The notes beneath the pieces were generated by a model. The model saw nothing but the letters and a program-made list of their open reading frames with translations. It was not told the DNA's origin and made no database searches. Shown one piece after another: positions 6,727 to 23,303 of a stretch of DNA of 23,303 nt. The first letter of the stretch is position 1. Each line of letters opens with the position of its first letter. The translations under genes and the position numbers were made by a program. Location of the stretch: positions 1 to 23,303 of IMG/VR virus record IMGVR_UViG_3300017963_000759; one strand, given 5' to 3'. Source of the DNA: a virus.

Positions 6727-7379
6727 CAAATCACCTCCGAGGCAAGCGCCTCATCTGCTGGGGTGGTCTCGGTTGTCGATATCTCGCCTTTTTTTAGCAA
6801 TCCAGCCGCTTGGGATTTTGCAGGATCTCCGAATCGTAGCTGTGACTGCCCCGGCTCGTTACTGGTGATAACCGTTGATATCAGAGGCAGTTCCATAAGT
6901 TCCGCAACAAACTCAAGGCCACCCTCATTTTCTGCGGTCTTGGTTCTTTCAACGCTAACAATTACCATGTTCTGTAATTGGATATCCCCTGCATCAATAT
7001 CGAATGGCTGTCTCTGGTACATGAGGCCAAGAAGAAGTTGTAGCGCAGCCCCCGCTCGTGTGCCGTCAGACCCAGACAGAAACCCCGCTGACAGACTTGC
7101 TATAGCTAGCGCTGTAGATGGATCGAATATATTGGTGATGACGCCAGACGCCTCGGTTAGCCCTGCTGATAGCGGGTTATTCGATACGAGCCCAGTGATC
7201 GACCACTCGATAGGATTGATTATCCCGTGGTCTGAGGCATCCGCCCCAACCTCAAGCGGGAATGTCGGGTAATCGACACTTGCCGATAATGTATCCTCGA
7301 GGACGGCATCAAAGGTCACCACGCCAAGGCTGGTGATGAATTCTGGGGACTTCGGGACAAAGATATTAATTAGCGCCAT
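6726..7379 (-). CDS. Dit-like baseplate protein next to the tape measure
   Basis: This protein of about 217 residues resembles the Dit-like N-terminal domain proteins that follow the tape measure gene in phages with simple baseplates. Its middle (IEWSITGLVSNNPL...TRAGAALQLLLGLMYQRQPFDIDAGDIQLQNMVIVSVERTKTAENEGGLEF) has the expected pattern of a beta-sandwich with an inserted helix. The last 45 residues look flexible and rich in Glu, Thr and Ala. It likely links the tail tube to the hub. The ATG at 7379 forms TGATG with the tape-measure stop. The family call rests on pattern and position. Confidence 0.6.
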   Translation of the reverse strand: MALINIFVPKSPEFITSLGVVTFDAVLEDTLSASVDYPTFPLEVGADASDHGIINPIEWSITGLVSNNPLSAGLTEASGVITNIFDPSTALAIASLSAGFLSGSDGTRAGAALQLLLGLMYQRQPFDIDAGDIQLQNMVIVSVERTKTAENEGGLEFVAELMELPLISTVITSNEPGQSQLRFGDPAKSQAAGLLKKGEISTTETTPADEALASEVI

Positions 7380-9612: not shown

Positions 9613-10755
9613 TTAAAATACGTCAACAGTGATATCAACGGCATGGATGGCACCGGCACGGAATATCCTAATTCGTATTGGTGCTGACTTGCGATCTGCA
9701 CGATCAGAGTCAGAGATAGTCAAAATATCGTCTGCCTTTGTCAGTATCTCATAGCCCTCCGTGAATTCATCCTGCCCGTTATCTGGGTTAGTCCAAATCC
9801 GAGGCCCAAGGTATCCATTAGAGATGTATTGCTCTCCGACATCCCTTGCGGCTGCCAGCAAGACAGACTGCCCCGGCGGGGTCTGCGCTAGCTTGGTGGG
9901 TTGATTCGCTGTTGCGTTATAGATAGACACTCGAAGATTGTTTACGAATGCGTCAAGGTTAACGACGTCGTCGATGTACTCGCCAAACGATGAATGAGAC
10001 CAGCTATTGATAACGCGCCCGGCATCGGTCGATCCCTGAAGGTCTACTACCGTATAGAATACAGCCTTCTTAGTGTCGAGCCTCATGGCCGCGTACTCAG
10101 TCCCCGTCAGGCTCTCAGCATCAACGCCGGGAAGCTTCTTGAACTCGCCAGTAATGGTAGAGCCTGGGATTGAGTAGTTTACCGAGGAGAACCAGGCGGC
10201 CAGCGAGTGCCCGGCATATGGGTCAGTTGCGTGGCTGAATGTTGAGATGTGGCGGGTTCCCTGCGTAGTCATCTGGGATGCGATGTCTGTATCATCGGCA
10301 ATATCCCTGATGTCTGCGGCCACTGAGCAGTTGAACGAGAACCGGGTATTCGCGTCCAGCCAATCAGCAACGAGAAGCATAGACGCTTCATCACTGTATA
10401 CATCTTCGGTGAAAAACGTCCAATACCACCATGTCTCATTTGCCGCGATATCTAGCGTCTCGACAATGGTCTCAATGGTGGCGGTGGTTGATTTCCTGCC
10501 CCAGACCCTAATCTCTCGCGGGGTTGGAATCATCGACATATAGCGCTGCGCCGCTTTGTATGTCTCTGTCGTGCTGGCGAAGTCTACACTTAGATCTGCC
10601 ATGCTCTGGTACACGCGGAAGGTGTTAACAGTAAAGCCACCCGGCAGCTCATCCTCTGGCGCAAAAAGCATAGCCAGTGAGAAGTTGGCAAACGACAACC
10701 CCTGCGGGCTGATCCGTGTGGCAATGTTAATGATATTTGACGCATCGTAGCTCAT
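9613..10755 (-). CDS. Contractile tail sheath protein (DUF3383)
   Basis: This 380-residue protein matches the DUF3383 family, the sheath of this myovirus group. The region EFKKLPGVDAESLTGTEYAAMRLDTKKAVFYTVVD resembles the sheath core around the insertion loop, and the late QDEFTEGYEILTKADDIL stretch leads to a C-terminal beta segment (IRIRIFRAGAIHAVDITVDVF) of the kind that links neighbouring subunits. It contracts around the tube to drive DNA delivery. The ATG has an AGGAG site. The protein is shorter than the large multidomain sheaths of T4-type phages. Confidence 0.85.
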   Translation of the reverse strand: MSYDASNIINIATRISPQGLSFANFSLAMLFAPEDELPGGFTVNTFRVYQSMADLSVDFASTTETYKAAQRYMSMIPTPREIRVWGRKSTTATIETIVETLDIAANETWWYWTFFTEDVYSDEASMLLVADWLDANTRFSFNCSVAADIRDIADDTDIASQMTTQGTRHISTFSHATDPYAGHSLAAWFSSVNYSIPGSTITGEFKKLPGVDAESLTGTEYAAMRLDTKKAVFYTVVDLQGSTDAGRVINSWSHSSFGEYIDDVVNLDAFVNNLRVSIYNATANQPTKLAQTPPGQSVLLAAARDVGEQYISNGYLGPRIWTNPDNGQDEFTEGYEILTKADDILTISDSDRADRKSAPIRIRIFRAGAIHAVDITVDVF

Positions 10756-10790: not shown

Positions 10791-11993
10791 TTAAAATGGC
10801 CCGCCGGTATAGGCTAGGCCGTATGGTAGTCCGCTCGGCGTTGCGAACGATGAACTGATCGTGGCAGTAATGCCGCTGTGGATGTAAATTAGGTCGGTTC
10901 CTGAGTCGGCGCTAATTAGGTTTGATCCGTCGTACGTGATGTCGGTTAGAATATCGGACGGCGATGCGAACGATGAACTGATCGTTGCCGTCACACCTGA
11001 ATGGATGTAGATTAAATGGACGCCGTCGTCGGCGCTAATTAGGTTTGATCCGTCGTAGGTTAGGCCTGCTGTATTGGCACCAGGCGTTGCGAACGATGAA
11101 CTGATCGTGGCAGTAATGCCGCTGTGGATGTAAATTAGGCCTGTACCTACGTCGGCGCTGATAAGGTTTATTCCGTCGTAGGCAAGGCCGCGTGGAAGCA
11201 GCCCCCCAGGCGCTGCGAAAGACGAGCCGATTGTTGCGGTGACGCCGGAGTGAATATAGATTAGATCGGTGACGACATCGACGCTGATAAGATTTGCTCC
11301 GTCGTAAGTGAGGCTAGATAGATTGTTTGCAGGCGCTGCAAATGATGTGCTGGTCGTGGCTGTAATGCCGTTATGGATGTAGATCAGATGAGCGCCAAGA
11401 TCGGCACTGATTAGGTTCCCGTCAACAGGAGATGGTACGAGCCCAGACACCGTCTCAACCTGAATGGTATCGCCGCCCTCGTTTTCAATGGCGATTTGAA
11501 CGGTGTAAATAGCATTCGTTGTCACTACCTGTGACTTTTCGTGCAATAGCGTGACGGTAATAAGCGCCCGCTCCTCTCTTTCATTCGACTGCAAAGCGGT
11601 CAAATTACTAACTGCGCTTGAGCCTTTCCAGCCGAGACCGGCAAGGAATAGCGCGGCGCTAATATCTGGGCGTTTATTCGCCTGATAGATACTTGACGCA
11701 CTCTCAAGGGCGCTGCCACGGTAGAAGTTAATGGCAACATCAACGGTTAACTGTGGTCGTATGTCGTGATTAACGTCGAGTACATCCCCGATTGGCGATG
11801 ACACTGGGTCTGTATTTGACGTGATTATGTTGGCTTGGCCGCGCTGCCCCCTACTTGCGCCTACCTTTATTGACGCGTAAGGGCCTGCTGGTGCTTGCTG
11901 GTTATCATCAGCGGGGATCACGTTGTTTATATCAAGACCTGAAACCGCAACAACAACGACCTGCATGACATCAAAGATCTCGCTATCTGTCAT
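10791..11993 (-). CDS. Neck/tail terminator protein fused to five propeller-like repeats
   Basis: Residues about 1-185 resemble the LIC_12616-type tail-terminator or neck protein: QAPAGPYASIKVGAS, a VDVAINFYRGSALESASSIYQANKRPD helix, then REERALITVTLLHEKSQVV. This protein normally forms a ring that closes the head end of the tail. Residues 190-395 are five repeats of 41-42 residues with the pattern DGxNLISADxGTDLIYIHSGITATISSSFATP...GLTY, and the protein ends YTGGPF. The DG-NLISAD-GT-LIYIHSG pattern resembles blades of beta-propellers. Such a C-terminal addition would project from the neck as a collar decoration, perhaps binding a host or environmental surface. That is inference. The start overlaps the preceding gene by 11 bases. 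Confidence 0.75.
   Translation of the reverse strand: MTDSEIFDVMQVVVVAVSGLDINNVIPADDNQQAPAGPYASIKVGASRGQRGQANIITSNTDPVSSPIGDVLDVNHDIRPQLTVDVAINFYRGSALESASSIYQANKRPDISAALFLAGLGWKGSSAVSNLTALQSNEREERALITVTLLHEKSQVVTTNAIYTVQIAIENEGGDTIQVETVSGLVPSPVDGNLISADLGAHLIYIHNGITATTSTSFAAPANNLSSLTYDGANLISVDVVTDLIYIHSGVTATIGSSFAAPGGLLPRGLAYDGINLISADVGTGLIYIHSGITATISSSFATPGANTAGLTYDGSNLISADDGVHLIYIHSGVTATISSSFASPSDILTDITYDGSNLISADSGTDLIYIHSGITATISSSFATPSGLPYGLAYTGGPF
10809..11426 (-). repeat. Five tandem 123-126 bp coding repeats
   Basis: The plus strand repeats with a period of 123, 123, 126 and 123 bases, marked by the copies of GCGAACGATG or close variants at 10843, 10966, 11089, 11215 and 11338. They encode the propeller-like blades of the neck fusion protein. 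Copies at 10837-10893 and 11083-11139 are identical over 57 bases, which suggests recent duplication or gene conversion. Confidence 0.9.
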
Positions 11994-12348
11994 TTAGATG
12001 CACCACGCATTTGCAGTAATTACGCCAAGGCCTATTATCCAGTCTATATGTAGTGAACCGGAGCCCAGACAATTCAGGCGAATCGAACACCCACTCATCC
12101 TGTGGAGTTATCGAATACAAATCACCATCATTAACGTATATTTTGCGGTAATCCTGCACCCTCTCCGCGCCTTCGCCAAGGTTCGCGACCTCCCTCTCAC
12201 TTAGTGGCTGAAGTGTCACCTTGTGGGGGGTCGGGGTTTCTGGCCCTGCCACCCACCTTCCGTCAACTCTGGCCCCGGACTGAGAGTAGCGGGTCGCCGG
12301 GATAGACTGGAGGCAGTCATCAATATGGCCTTCCATATCTAAACTCAC
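11983..12348 (-). CDS. Putative head-tail neck (head-closure-like) protein
   Basis: This 121-residue protein lies between a gp10-like gene and the tail terminator, a usual place for head-closure or stopper proteins. It is beta-rich in its second half (QDYRKIYVNDGDLYSI, DEWVFDSPELSGLRFTTYRLDNRPW). A YSQSGARVDGRWVAGPETP region near residues 21-39 fits the loop of such small neck proteins. The start is GTG, overlapping the preceding stop as GTGA, with GGAGG seven bases upstream. The family assignment is by position and size more than by motif. Confidence 0.5.
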   Translation of the reverse strand: MSLDMEGHIDDCLQSIPATRYSQSGARVDGRWVAGPETPTPHKVTLQPLSEREVANLGEGAERVQDYRKIYVNDGDLYSITPQDEWVFDSPELSGLRFTTYRLDNRPWRNYCKCVVHLNDR

Positions 12349-12824
12349 AGACCCTCCTCCGGCTTCTGCTGCTGCACTTTGTAGGTAACCGCTGCCCTCA
12401 TAGCGCCTTTATTAATCAATGGGTTTGCGCTCTTCTTTCTCTTGATCGTTGATTCCGCGTTGGCAGGGGCCTTTAACTCGGTCATGTACTGCTGCACGTT
12501 TCCAACCGCGAGCAGTCCAACTTGATTCATTGCCTGATCCATTCCTTTGCCGTCTTCAATGGCCTGCGCTACTGCATCTTTCATAATGTCGGAGTAATCC
12601 TCATCCCCGACATGGAATCCAGGCTCAAGCCATGGTCTCGCAGGAATACGATCATTCCCGAATTCTTGCACAGCTCCAAGGGTAGCCATGTTGATTTCAC
12701 CCTCAGGCGGATCTGCTGCATCCTCGTGAATACCTACCGTAACCATCGGCGCGTCAAGACTCTTTAGCACCTCATCAAGCGCCTTTTTTACCTTGTCAAC
12801 GCCAGATACGGTGGACTTGATCAT
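12345..12824 (-). CDS. HK97 gp10-like tail completion/neck protein
   Basis: This 159-residue protein has the marks of the gp10-like family: a start helix with KVKKALDEVLKSL, then MVTVGIHED, LGAVQEFGNDRIPARPWLEPGF (the typical Glu-Phe-Gly...ProAlaArgPro segment), a helix region with QVGLLAVGNVQQYM, and a late NPLINKGAMRAAVTYKV. The family takes part in connecting head and tail. Start and upstream stop overlap as ATGA. Confidence 0.8.
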   Translation of the reverse strand: MIKSTVSGVDKVKKALDEVLKSLDAPMVTVGIHEDAADPPEGEINMATLGAVQEFGNDRIPARPWLEPGFHVGDEDYSDIMKDAVAQAIEDGKGMDQAMNQVGLLAVGNVQQYMTELKAPANAESTIKRKKSANPLINKGAMRAAVTYKVQQQKPEEGL

Positions 12825-13249
12825 ACTGCTCTAGCACCCATGCCTGCACGCCTGCGTAGACGCATAAATTGCTGGCCCCATGAGGTTGACGCAAGCCACC
12901 CATTGCCAGAATCCGAAATATCGGCAACCGATGCGGCCCCGAAAGTCACAGACTCATCGCCAACCGACTTTGACAGCACCGCGTTGTTTGCATTGCCAGA
13001 TTGCGCCGTATCATCCGTAGCGCCTTTGGGGTACGTGGTAGTTAGCCAATGGGCGGCGAACATGAACATTCCGCGCTGTTTGAAGTTATGGCATTCATCG
13101 TCATATGTACCCCACCCTCTACCTCCTGTCTCTGCGTCGCCTTCGCACAGGGCCGTAGTTACAACGCTGTCGGGCCATGTCACCTCATCAGAGAATGCGG
13201 GGTATGCTGTTCTGAATGCCGTGATTACTTCTGCCGTGATATCCATCAT
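12821..13249 (-). CDS. Head-tail connector protein (DUF4054)
   Basis: This 142-residue protein matches DUF4054, a connector or adaptor that binds the portal at the head-tail vertex. Characteristic parts are FRTAYPAFSDEVTWPDSVVTTAL, then WGTYDDECHNFKQRGMFMFAAHWLTTTYPKG, and the Gly/Ala-rich C-terminal half with WLASTSWGQQFMRLRRRAGMGARAV. It starts with two adjacent ATG codons, and the AGAGGG site suits either. Confidence 0.82.
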   Translation of the reverse strand: MMDITAEVITAFRTAYPAFSDEVTWPDSVVTTALCEGDAETGGRGWGTYDDECHNFKQRGMFMFAAHWLTTTYPKGATDDTAQSGNANNAVLSKSVGDESVTFGAASVADISDSGNGWLASTSWGQQFMRLRRRAGMGARAV

Positions 13250-13256
13250 GAACCCT

Positions 13257-14711
13257 CTACGAGAAGTACTCTTCCCATCTAAATGACAGCTCTACCTCGC
13301 TTGCTCCGGCGGATTCGCCAGTAACAAGCATTAACTCTCCCGGATCCATCTCCAAGTGAATATGGCCTGCCCCAAGTACTAGAGATATAGTGTCTGACTT
13401 CGCCATTGGCACAGACATCTCATATTTCCCAGATCCTTGAGTAAATGCGGCCGTTACATTGATCTCTGTTACAGAATTATCCGCATCGACATCATTCCAT
13501 ACTCCACCAATTACCGTGGCGTTCCTCCAGAACCTAATAATAACCGATTTAGTCCCATCCGTTGACGCGCCCATATATGTGGCTTCGATAGCAACCTTGT
13601 TTGCCCTGCCTTGGAATGTATCTTTATTTCTAAATGCCGCTATTAACGTCTCTGTTCCAGCTGAAAGAGAAGAGAACCCCTCCCCCGCGAACACGCGATG
13701 CCCTGCGTGGGTGTGGATGCCCTCGATAGTGCCGCCAGCCCATGACGATGTTCTCATGGTTATATCAGCGCCATCCCCTGCCGTGCGTCCGACCTCAAAT
13801 TTTATCGCCTGGCTCGGCTCACTTATTGTTGGGGATGTTGATGTGTTTGTCTGATCGATGACATGCACAAGTATCCAGTCATATCCTATGCCCCCGTACA
13901 CCCAGAAACTAACCGGCGCAGATCCTAACCATCCGTAAGTTATCTTGTATTGAAGTAGCGCATTGTGATTTAGATTGAACCCAGACTTCCCAGCGCCATC
14001 GCACGGATCAATATTCCACCCTGATTGCGGGAAAAACTCATCTACCCCGTCTTTTCTGAGGGAAACACCAAATACAGTATTTTCGTAACCAAAAAAGAAG
14101 CCATCAACACCATTGAATATCCCGTGCCGCTGATAGGTGCCAGGCTCTGGTGTGTCGTATATGGTGGTGAAGAACGCGTATACCTCATGCCCTGGCCGGT
14201 ATGTGATAAAGCGCTTGCTTTCTATTATCGCCTCACCAACGCCAATCCCCGTTGTAACGGATGCCATAGCATCGGCGTTCCCGGTTGTGCCAGTCCCTGC
14301 TACGGTCTCAATGACGTCCTCGCTTGAGTTGCTGTATTCAAATCGAACCAGCACATCGTCGCCTCGCATCCCCGTTACCAACTGACCATAGCGAGACACA
14401 TCAGCAGCCGCGCCAGCTGTCCCGACAATAGACGTTGACGGGGTGATGGCTTTAGCCACATGCACAGCGCCCCCCATCTGAGAGAACGCCCATATTCCAC
14501 TAGGAGAAGGCGGGGTTACGGTCTTCCCAGCCTTTATCACTAGCTCGTGTCCATCCTCGTCATCTGGTTGATCAGGCCCTATATGTATCCTGACATCACC
14601 AGCATTCAGAGATTGGATTTCTAAAATAGTGCCGACAGCAATACCGGACGCAGCATAGACATCGACCCATTGATCCTTGTCTAGCTGAATTATCGGTAGA
14701 GAGTCGGCCAT
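13257..14711 (-). CDS. Large accessory virion protein, probably capsid- or neck-associated
   Basis: This 484-residue protein is not a standard head gene. The first about 80 residues look like a small beta domain (DQWVDVYAASGIAVGTILEIQ...GIWAFSQMGGAVHV). The middle (about 168-285) carries a block I recognise from phage structural proteins: RPGHEVYAFFTTIYDTPEPGTYQRHGIFNGVDGFFFGYENTVFGVSLRKDGVDEFFPQ, then a KITYGWLGSAPVSFWVYGG strand. The last about 140 residues are another beta domain with charged surfaces. It lies between capsid and connector genes, so head decoration, collar fibre or receptor binding are all possible. There is no catalytic motif I recognise. Confidence 0.6.
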   Translation of the reverse strand: MADSLPIIQLDKDQWVDVYAASGIAVGTILEIQSLNAGDVRIHIGPDQPDDEDGHELVIKAGKTVTPPSPSGIWAFSQMGGAVHVAKAITPSTSIVGTAGAAADVSRYGQLVTGMRGDDVLVRFEYSNSSEDVIETVAGTGTTGNADAMASVTTGIGVGEAIIESKRFITYRPGHEVYAFFTTIYDTPEPGTYQRHGIFNGVDGFFFGYENTVFGVSLRKDGVDEFFPQSGWNIDPCDGAGKSGFNLNHNALLQYKITYGWLGSAPVSFWVYGGIGYDWILVHVIDQTNTSTSPTISEPSQAIKFEVGRTAGDGADITMRTSSWAGGTIEGIHTHAGHRVFAGEGFSSLSAGTETLIAAFRNKDTFQGRANKVAIEATYMGASTDGTKSVIIRFWRNATVIGGVWNDVDADNSVTEINVTAAFTQGSGKYEMSVPMAKSDTISLVLGAGHIHLEMDPGELMLVTGESAGASEVELSFRWEEYFS

Positions 14712-21820: not shown

Positions 21821-22301
21821 ACTTTGCTATTTCTTCTGCCAGCTCTTCATCGGATATCTCGGAAACCAGGATCGGCCCGCCTCCCGGCCCTGTGACCTCG
21901 CTCGTTGTCGAGTCCCTAAGCCCCAGGTCTCTAGCTATGATGTTGGCATTAAACAGGTCTGCCGCAGCCCCTGTGAACTTCTGGGTACGTATTACGCGCT
22001 CAATATTGGCAACGACATCAATAAAATCTTCCCTCCCCCTGTAATCACTCCATGTCTGTGTGGATATATCAAGGAAGATATGCAAGCCGTCAAGCGTCAT
22101 TGCCCTTGCTTTGTTGATTGTTAGGTCTACTTGCTCCCCTTGGAATTGGGCAGCCTTATTTTCTACTAGCGGGTTGCTGTCCACCCACTCGAAATACTCG
22201 CACGCAGCCGACCATAACGAGTTTTTATCGGAGAATATCTTATCCCTGCCGTGTTTGGCTCTTGCTTTCCAGAATTGGTTTCCTGGCGGGGCTGGCATCA
22301 C
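21795..22301 (-). CDS. Terminase small subunit (P22 gp3-like)
   Basis: This 168-residue protein starts with GNQFWKARAKHGRDKIFSDKNSLWSAACEYFEWVDSNPL, the pattern of P22 gp3-type DNA-packaging proteins. A helical body follows (TLDGLHIFLDISTQTWSDYRGREDFIDVVANIERVIRTQKF), then NANIIARDLGLRD, and the acidic C-terminus probably binds the large subunit. It recognises phage DNA and starts packaging. A GTG at 22301 has the better spacing to AAAGGA. The ATG at 22298 would form TGATG with the upstream stop, so the true start may be one codon later. Confidence 0.82.
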   Translation of the reverse strand: MMPAPPGNQFWKARAKHGRDKIFSDKNSLWSAACEYFEWVDSNPLVENKAAQFQGEQVDLTINKARAMTLDGLHIFLDISTQTWSDYRGREDFIDVVANIERVIRTQKFTGAAADLFNANIIARDLGLRDSTTSEVTGPGGGPILVSEISDEELAEEIAKYALEPKDI

Positions 22302-22603
22302 TCACCAATCCTTTCTTCAGCAGTCCACATATTAGCCGTGACTCCATTATCGCCGTATACCCGCACCTCATGCGCCCCGGACTCCCCTACAGATAGGGCG
22401 GTAGCCGGGAAGTCCTTTCTTGTGATGATGCACCCGCGCTTTACTAGCCATTCAATCGCCCGCTTATCGCCAGTATTGACGGCCGTTGCTAGCTGGGTAA
22501 GCTTATCCTCACTCGTACACGCAATAGAGCCAGCGCTTAGCGTTGCGGCCATGGAGGCGTTCATGGATAGCGCGGCGGCGGTTATCAGTACAGCCTTTAT
22601 CAT
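22298..22603 (-). CDS. Small exported protein upstream of the terminase
   Basis: This 101-residue protein has a clear Sec signal peptide: Lys at residue 3, a hydrophobic core to about residue 14, and ASMA as cleavage site at about 16-19. The mature protein of about 80 residues has two Cys (29 and 58), which could form a disulphide in the periplasm, and a short Leu/Ala helix (KLTQLATAVNTGDKRAIEWLVKRG). I recognise no family. Exported small phage proteins can alter the envelope or block superinfection, but nothing here proves this. Start and upstream stop overlap as ATGA. Confidence 0.6.
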   Translation of the reverse strand: MIKAVLITAAALSMNASMAATLSAGSIACTSEDKLTQLATAVNTGDKRAIEWLVKRGCIITRKDFPATALSVGESGAHEVRVYGDNGVTANMWTAEERIGE

Positions 22604-22869
22604 TGCTGCGCAGATTCCATCAGCGGGATAGTCAGCAGCTCCGCGTCATATTCGGCCTTTGTCAATTCAATGATCGTAGTTCCGTTGGCGGTTACCGAGT
22701 CGTCAGCGATACCAAGCATAAACTCATCCTCGTAGTGTTGCACCTGTCCGCTTTGGTGCTGGTATCGTGCAGGAATAATGCCGTCGGCGCTGTACCCGTC
22801 TGGGTATACCCAGTCCACCCTGCCGTTGCTTCCTAGGCTCTTTGTTATCTCTACTCTAACGTATTTCAT
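22600..22869 (-). CDS. Small hypothetical protein
   Basis: This 89-residue protein is not one I recognise. The first half has strands (KYVRVEITK, RVDWVYPDGYSADGIIPARY) and the second contains a Thr-rich strand followed by a helix (IIELTKAEYDAELLTI). There is no signal peptide or membrane helix. AGGAG is correctly placed before the ATG, and the stop overlaps the exported-protein gene as ATGA, so the two are probably made together. Confidence 0.6.
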   Translation of the reverse strand: MKYVRVEITKSLGSNGRVDWVYPDGYSADGIIPARYQHQSGQVQHYEDEFMLGIADDSVTANGTTIIELTKAEYDAELLTIPLMESAQQ

Positions 22870-22907: not shown

Positions 22908-23303
22908 TCATCCGGTATAAGTCAGGCCCCTGTTCACCTCGCCAGGCGTCGCGAAAGATGTGCTAATCGTGGCAGTGATGCCTGAGTGAACGTAGATTAA
23001 ATCGGTGCCGTTGTCGGCGCTGATTAGGTTGGTGCCGTCGTATGTGAGTCCGGTTATGCTGCCATCAGGCGTTGCGAATGATGTGCTGATCGTGCTGGTG
23101 ATGCCGCTGTGAACGTAGATTAAATCGGTGTCTGCGTCGGCGGTTATCAGGTTTGCGCCGTCGTATGCCATGCCACGAACATTCGCCCCAGGCGTTGCGA
23201 ATGATGAACTGATTGTGGCGGTGACTCCGGAATGGATGTAGATTAAGCCGGTGCCTGCGTCGGCGCTGATTAGGTTGATGCCGTCGTATGTCATGACACG
23301 AAA
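22908..23303 (-). CDS. C-terminal part of a propeller-repeat protein, cut by the right edge
   Basis: The frame is open to the window edge (Phe-Arg-Val-Met-Thr-Tyr-Asp-Gly), so the Met at 23294 is probably internal. Three repeats of 41 residues are visible with the pattern DGxNLISADxGTDLIYVHSGITATISTSFATPG, and the protein ends GLTYTG. This is almost the same repeat and ending as in the neck fusion protein near 10.8 kb. The N-terminal part is outside the window, so it is unknown whether another virion domain is attached. Confidence 0.75.
   Translation of the reverse strand, partial: FRVMTYDGINLISADAGTGLIYIHSGVTATISSSFATPGANVRGMAYDGANLITADADTDLIYVHSGITSTISTSFATPDGSITGLTYDGTNLISADNGTDLIYVHSGITATISTSFATPGEVNRGLTYTG
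22911..23303 (-). repeat. Tandem 123 bp coding repeats at the right edge
   Basis: Marker copies of GCGAAAGATG or GCGAATGATG on the plus strand lie at 22951, 23074 and 23197, a strict period of 123 bases. They are close in sequence to the repeats at 10809-11426 and in the same orientation, so the two loci are direct repeats about 11.9 kb apart. The array continues beyond the window. Confidence 0.88.

Follow-up and report, generated by a model that had tools for sequence, protein, structure and literature searches.

The window analysed here is the whole of an IMG/VR virus record of 23,303 bases, which is classed as a linear virus record; such records are often fragments. Its minus strand carries an open reading frame that starts with ATG, encodes 400 residues and ends with a stop at 10791, and in which a phage neck terminator domain is joined to a predicted beta-propeller (Table 1). 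On the head side, the window encodes the small and large terminase, the portal and the major head protein, followed by a DUF4054 adaptor-like protein. The local order is then adaptor, Neck1, gp28-like protein, terminator, sheath and tube, and the tail-side genes after the tube are those for the tape measure, baseplate, tail fibre and endolysin. A comparable gene order is found in PhiPLPE, KsaM-C1 and CP-T1, and, judged by their profile matches, the neighbours are those expected of a contractile-tailed phage. The gp28-like neck gene, whose product matches PF22755 (E217_gp28) with an E value of 0.21 only, overlaps the start of the fusion gene by 11 nt. The sheath gene starts 35 nt beyond the fusion gene with an AGGAG site, and both flanks are syntenic with relatives. 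Between the head and neck genes lies a gene for a 484-residue virion structural protein (13257-14711; phrog_1645); the matching region of PhiPLPE holds two virion proteins confirmed by mass spectrometry and two putative tail-fibre genes.

A second propeller gene, which is missing from a preliminary description of this DNA, is cut by the contig end. Its repeat array (22942-23302) has the same 123-nt period, or 41 codons, as the array of the fusion gene (10832-11190), both detected by Tandem Repeats Finder. The second-array blades scored 97, 92 and 97 bits with the blade HMM and are 72% identical to those of the fusion. Homologues of the 89-residue companion that follows this gene also stand after propeller genes in contigs L003 and L092/L093. 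An open reading frame of 101 residues with a signal-peptide-like start (22298-22603) separates this companion from the small terminase gene.

Table 1. Coordinates of the fusion gene, its domains and its neighbours in the window.
Feature	Coordinates	Strand	Evidence
Terminator-propeller fusion gene, 400 aa	10791..11993	minus	ORF, profiles, AlphaFold2
Neck/tail terminator domain, residues 1-185, including C-terminal arm	11439..11993	minus	PF23961, NF047498; arm by homology
Predicted five-bladed beta-propeller, residues 193-400	10794..11417	minus	AlphaFold2, blade HMM
Blade 1, register B-C-D-A, residues 193-233	11295..11417	minus	
Blade 2, residues 234-275	11169..11294	minus	
Blade 3, residues 276-316	11046..11168	minus	
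Blade 4, residues 317-357	10923..11045	minus	
Blade 5 and last A strand (GLAYTG), residues 358-400	10794..10922	minus	
Tail sheath, directly after the fusion gene; putative partner of the terminator arm	9613..10755	minus	PF11863 3.5e-28, phrog_205 1e-74
gp28-like neck protein	11983..12348	minus	phrog_6753 1.4e-37; phrog_939 head protein 2.2e-4
Tail completion/Neck1 protein	12345..12824	minus	phrog_222 1.4e-45
DUF4054 head-tail adaptor-like protein	12821..13249	minus	PF13262 1.8e-15, phrog_302
Second propeller protein, C-terminal part, at least 3 blades, cut by contig end	22908..23303	minus	blade HMM
89-aa companion gene, after the second propeller gene	22600..22869	minus	homologues

The terminator domain and its arm

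Terminators are usually taken as conserved plumbing parts. Residues 1-185 of the fusion match PF23961 with 63.7 bits (2e-17; curated cut-off 27) and NF047498, 'phage neck terminator protein', with 42.3 bits (5.6e-11; curated cut-off 28). Since both cut-offs are passed and the neighbouring genes fit, the earlier assignment of the N-terminal 185 residues as terminator-like holds, and the boundary with the repeats lies where it had been placed, at about residue 185-192. The residues that are invariant in the family are retained, AlphaFold2 was confident across most of residues 1-160, and the viral models in BFVD that match this predicted fold include proteins named neck terminator gp12-like. A tblastn search matched 345 phage records, and every match listed was confined to the terminator part; the best, gp44 of Iodobacter phage PhiPLPE, is 49% identical over residues 1-187.

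The gp29 protein of E217 also passes PF23961 (28.1 bits against a cut-off of 27), while direct hhalign of gp29 against the terminator alignment gave no match, nor did a sequence comparison of the terminator profile with solved structures. In E217, gp29 forms a hexameric gateway, and its C-terminal residues 172-182 extend outwards to pair with the sheath (PMC10329688); the C-terminal arm of XM1 gp5 likewise binds the sheath (PMC10457771). The fusion keeps the arm to its usual end: the PhiPLPE protein stops after '...EEFTVGVTP', whereas the fusion reads '...QVETVSGLVP' and then enters the first blade. By homology with E217 gp29, residues 1-185 would form a hexameric ring on the tail tube, and the arm would contact the sheath.

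The fusion thus shares with the PF23961/NF047498 terminators (PhiPLPE gp44 and E217 gp29, with XM1 gp5 as an analogue) the family score, the length of residues 1-185, the conserved residues, the position before the sheath gene and the C-terminal arm. The difference is in what follows. The relatives found end at about 165-200 residues with no further domain, which is a usual and not a defining trait of terminators, whereas the fusion has 400 residues and goes on into a 208-residue propeller. The preliminary description had called for a comparison with the terminators of related phages: in a set of 86 reading frames, in which the window gene is counted twice, the extension is absent from all 84 others, none of which has more than 32 residues past the aligned core.

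Predicted fold and history of the repeats

The repeats of the fusion start at residues 193, 234, 276, 317 and 358. The AlphaFold2 model of the monomer, built with 31 sequences, has a mean pLDDT of 88.5 and a pTM of 0.56. Alignment A7 was the one used for structure; A4-A6 were discarded because MAFFT had placed terminator C-termini within the blades or had given the blades no separate rows. In the repeat region, where pLDDT is mostly 93-98, the model contains 20 strands in four-strand groups that close into a five-bladed ring. The connection between the domains (residues 161-190) is mostly at pLDDT 51 and below, and the angle between the domains is not fixed by the model. Among PDB entries listed by Foldseek, the matches are overwhelmingly propellers, including the five-bladed glutaminyl cyclases (3mbr, TM 0.63 by target; 2iwa, 0.57). 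Against BFVD, both neck terminators and propellers were matched, as a true fusion should give. A predicted ring of five four-stranded blades is therefore well supported, and the propeller-like fold proposed in the preliminary description agrees with both the model and the superfamily matched. That description had also named two outcomes that would speak against it, namely a disordered or unrelated fold of the repeats and a first part unlike any terminator; both were looked for and neither was found. None of the Pfam, NCBIfam and PHROG models tested recognizes the propeller family convincingly; GFO_IDH_MocA_C3 and RHS repeat were rejected as identities of the blade, their HMM signals being below the cut-off.

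The five repeats of about 41 residues had been called near-identical. The count stands, and the likeness holds for the protein, in which the 29-residue blade cores are 66-93% identical to one another, but not for the DNA, in which synonymous sites are mostly near saturation. Pairwise comparison of the eight blades in the window gave dN of 0.05-0.29 and dS of mostly about 0.5-2, at or near saturation; the sole recent pair is T_3/T_5, with a dS of 0.27. Owing to this combination of saturated synonymous sites and low dN, the array is taken as old and under strong purifying selection, and the synonymous divergence between blades speaks against both a recent tandem expansion and a mere stutter of the assembly.

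Among 132 distinct blades, variability is highest at columns 40, 15, 16 and 42, which lie within the DA and BC loops or beside them. Mean entropy is about 2.9 bits in the BC loops and 2.1 in DA, and the conserved AB and CD loops have values of about 0.9 and 1.3; these values pool propellers borne by many different proteins. In propeller geometry, the BC and DA loops share one face. A fixed frame with a single variable face would be the pattern of a ligand-binding scaffold.

Spread of the propeller family

The propeller family was found on 55 IMG/VR contigs, several of which are near-copies of one another: 48 came from the blade profile and seven from two more scans (L160, L161, L163, L164, L167, L169 and L170). 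A blade query of 84,980 prokaryote genomes (GTDB) confirmed none at the sensitivity used, and tblastn of 50,697 phage records gave nothing significant; both depend on conserved words or on moderate similarity, and distant members may have escaped them. The plasmid search returned one match only, to a Nostoc NB-ARC protein with an E value of 0.8, and nothing significant. Within the collections searched, the family occurs only in uncultivated viruses, with no isolate carrier.

Most complete propeller reading frames contain five of each scored strand, and L094 contains ten. A few propellers score four, namely L003 (frameshifted), L104 (unknown bases) and L090, which have divergent or damaged blades. 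Two registers occur, one starting at strand D and ending after C and the other starting at B and ending after A, and the sum is still five. A circular shift of this kind, which leaves the number of blades unchanged, is expected of a closed ring. The frameshift in L003 (1372-1384) breaks its propeller reading frame, the N-terminal half of which resembles Lactonase/SGL propellers below the cut-off.

The carriers of the domain are diverse. Stand-alone propeller genes are short (about 235-241 residues); in L095 the gene immediately after it encodes a tail assembly chaperone (PF16778, 1.2e-18). In L111 the propeller ends a tail assembly protein (phrog_1082), behind a Ser/Thr-rich linker. In L114 (5593-8043) and L185 (5641-8091) it is internal to a tail protein (phrog_376) and not terminal, as would result from the insertion of a domain. 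Elsewhere it occurs with a LamG lectin-like domain (L091) or with a BNR-repeat protein (L115). Right behind the propeller genes of L088 and L089 stand genes of about 190 codons (857-1435 and 6773-7342) whose products resemble Anp1-type glycosyltransferases weakly, with scores below the cut-off.

Of the contigs found, the window is the only one in which the propeller is joined to a PF23961 terminator. In L131, a 499-residue protein with the propeller behind a poly-Ser linker lies between Neck1 and a tail-tube-like protein, which is the terminator position. Its 160-residue N-terminal part has no relatives, no family match and no terminator profile match, and its single-sequence AlphaFold2 model is at pLDDT 40; it was not accepted as a second proven terminator fusion, and reading it as a terminator depends on gene position. 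Several head and tail proteins of L131 (270-7476) contain or end in long poly-Ser tracts.

Proposed function of the fusion and known systems

We propose that the fusion is probably a PhiPLPE-like contractile-phage terminator with a propeller after its arm, about six copies of which would serve as neck-mounted auxiliary adhesins. The fold and the neck placement are well supported, and the copy number is taken from homology. The terminator would assemble into a hexameric ring that joins the head-closure ring to the tail tube, and its arm would pair with C-terminal strands in the first ring of the sheath, as do those of E217 gp29 and XM1 gp5. Since the chain runs straight from the arm into the propeller, about six propellers would stand exposed around the outside of the sheath at its top. 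The preliminary description had likewise pictured about six propellers around the neck that might bind glycans, flagella or other surfaces; we would retain both the number and the binding as presumed properties. The propeller would be one copy of a mobile, virus-borne display domain, which is found again in another gene of this phage and on the tail proteins of phages unrelated to it. Its binding to a glycan or other surface ligand from the neck would be of low affinity and multivalent and would complement the tail fibres. The most variable residues lie together on a single face, in the BC and DA loops, which makes such an auxiliary adhesin the most likely role. More tentatively, it is possible that uncultivated tailed phages have attached a plug-in adhesin propeller repeatedly and independently to different structural proteins. 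The neck terminator would be one of these in two or more unrelated phages (the window and L131), and certain phages would then carry a ring of variable binding heads at the neck in addition to those at the tail tip.

The position of the propeller, directly behind an arm that touches the sheath in relatives and a few residues past the end of a PhiPLPE-like terminator, would also suit a structural collar, in which six propellers pack together or on the top sheath ring and strengthen the neck and nothing outside the virion is bound; collars that encase the neck are known from other myophages such as phage 7-7-1. We consider this unlikely. The occurrence of the same domain in stand-alone genes, in a tail assembly protein, in a tail protein and beside a chaperone gene makes a neck-specific role unlikely, and its absence from the 84 terminator relatives and the gathering of its variability on one face also speak against a collar. 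The whiskers of T4 hold the long tail fibres at the neck, and the propeller might similarly dock another virion part, for which the product of the second propeller gene (22908-23303) and a tail fibre are candidates. Two genes of one phage with the same blade type at 72% identity would fit this; however, there is no sign of pairing between propellers, and the second gene, cut by the contig end, is followed by a companion of its own; we regard docking as less probable still. An assembly artefact or a dying, functionless fusion is very improbable: although the fusion comes from a single metagenomic contig, repeats commonly cause misassembly and the related reading frame of L003 is frameshifted, the flanks are syntenic with those of relatives, the sheath gene and its AGGAG site are in place, blades of the two arrays show many synonymous differences, a dN/dS far below 1 and no stop codon, and the domain closes at exactly five blades in a predicted fold of high confidence.

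With the fusion read as a terminator bearing an adhesin, the neck ring would be reused as a display platform, for which the arm offers a natural attachment point outside the sheath. The five-blade rule, the shifted registers and the one-face variability make the family a clear candidate for a modular ligand-binding scaffold of uncultivated phages, and what a phage neck binds becomes testable with a single recombinant domain.

Each half of the fusion is of a known kind, and no description of this viral propeller family was found. Their union was not found in the literature searched, most subscription journals being outside its scope. Highly repetitive beta-propellers are known that were amplified from single blades (PMC9218822). 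The window propeller resembles them in that its blades are far more alike than those of old, diverged propellers, but its array is mostly not newly amplified and its family is found in viral contigs only. The receptor-binding protein Gp45 of phi11 contains a five-bladed propeller, a cavity of which has been proposed as a site for GlcNAc (PMC4901313). Both are five-bladed, glutaminyl-cyclase-like by fold and, in our reading, carried on a phage virion, whereas the phi11 propeller (residues 142-439) has longer blades and forms trimers at the baseplate (PMC4901313). By sequence, the fusion matched no PDB entry, and the propeller profile gave weak WD40/NHL and chance matches only, with Gp45 not among them. 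In lactococcal 936 phages, neck and tail structural proteins can bear host-binding modules, two of which bound the host of their phage (PMC6669499). Those BppA-like modules are placed on a separate neck protein or on the major tail protein, whereas the five-bladed propeller of the window is placed on the terminator itself. The fusion is not a member of the neck carbohydrate-binding modules, from which its scaffold differs, but would work as they do, with carbohydrate as a presumed ligand.
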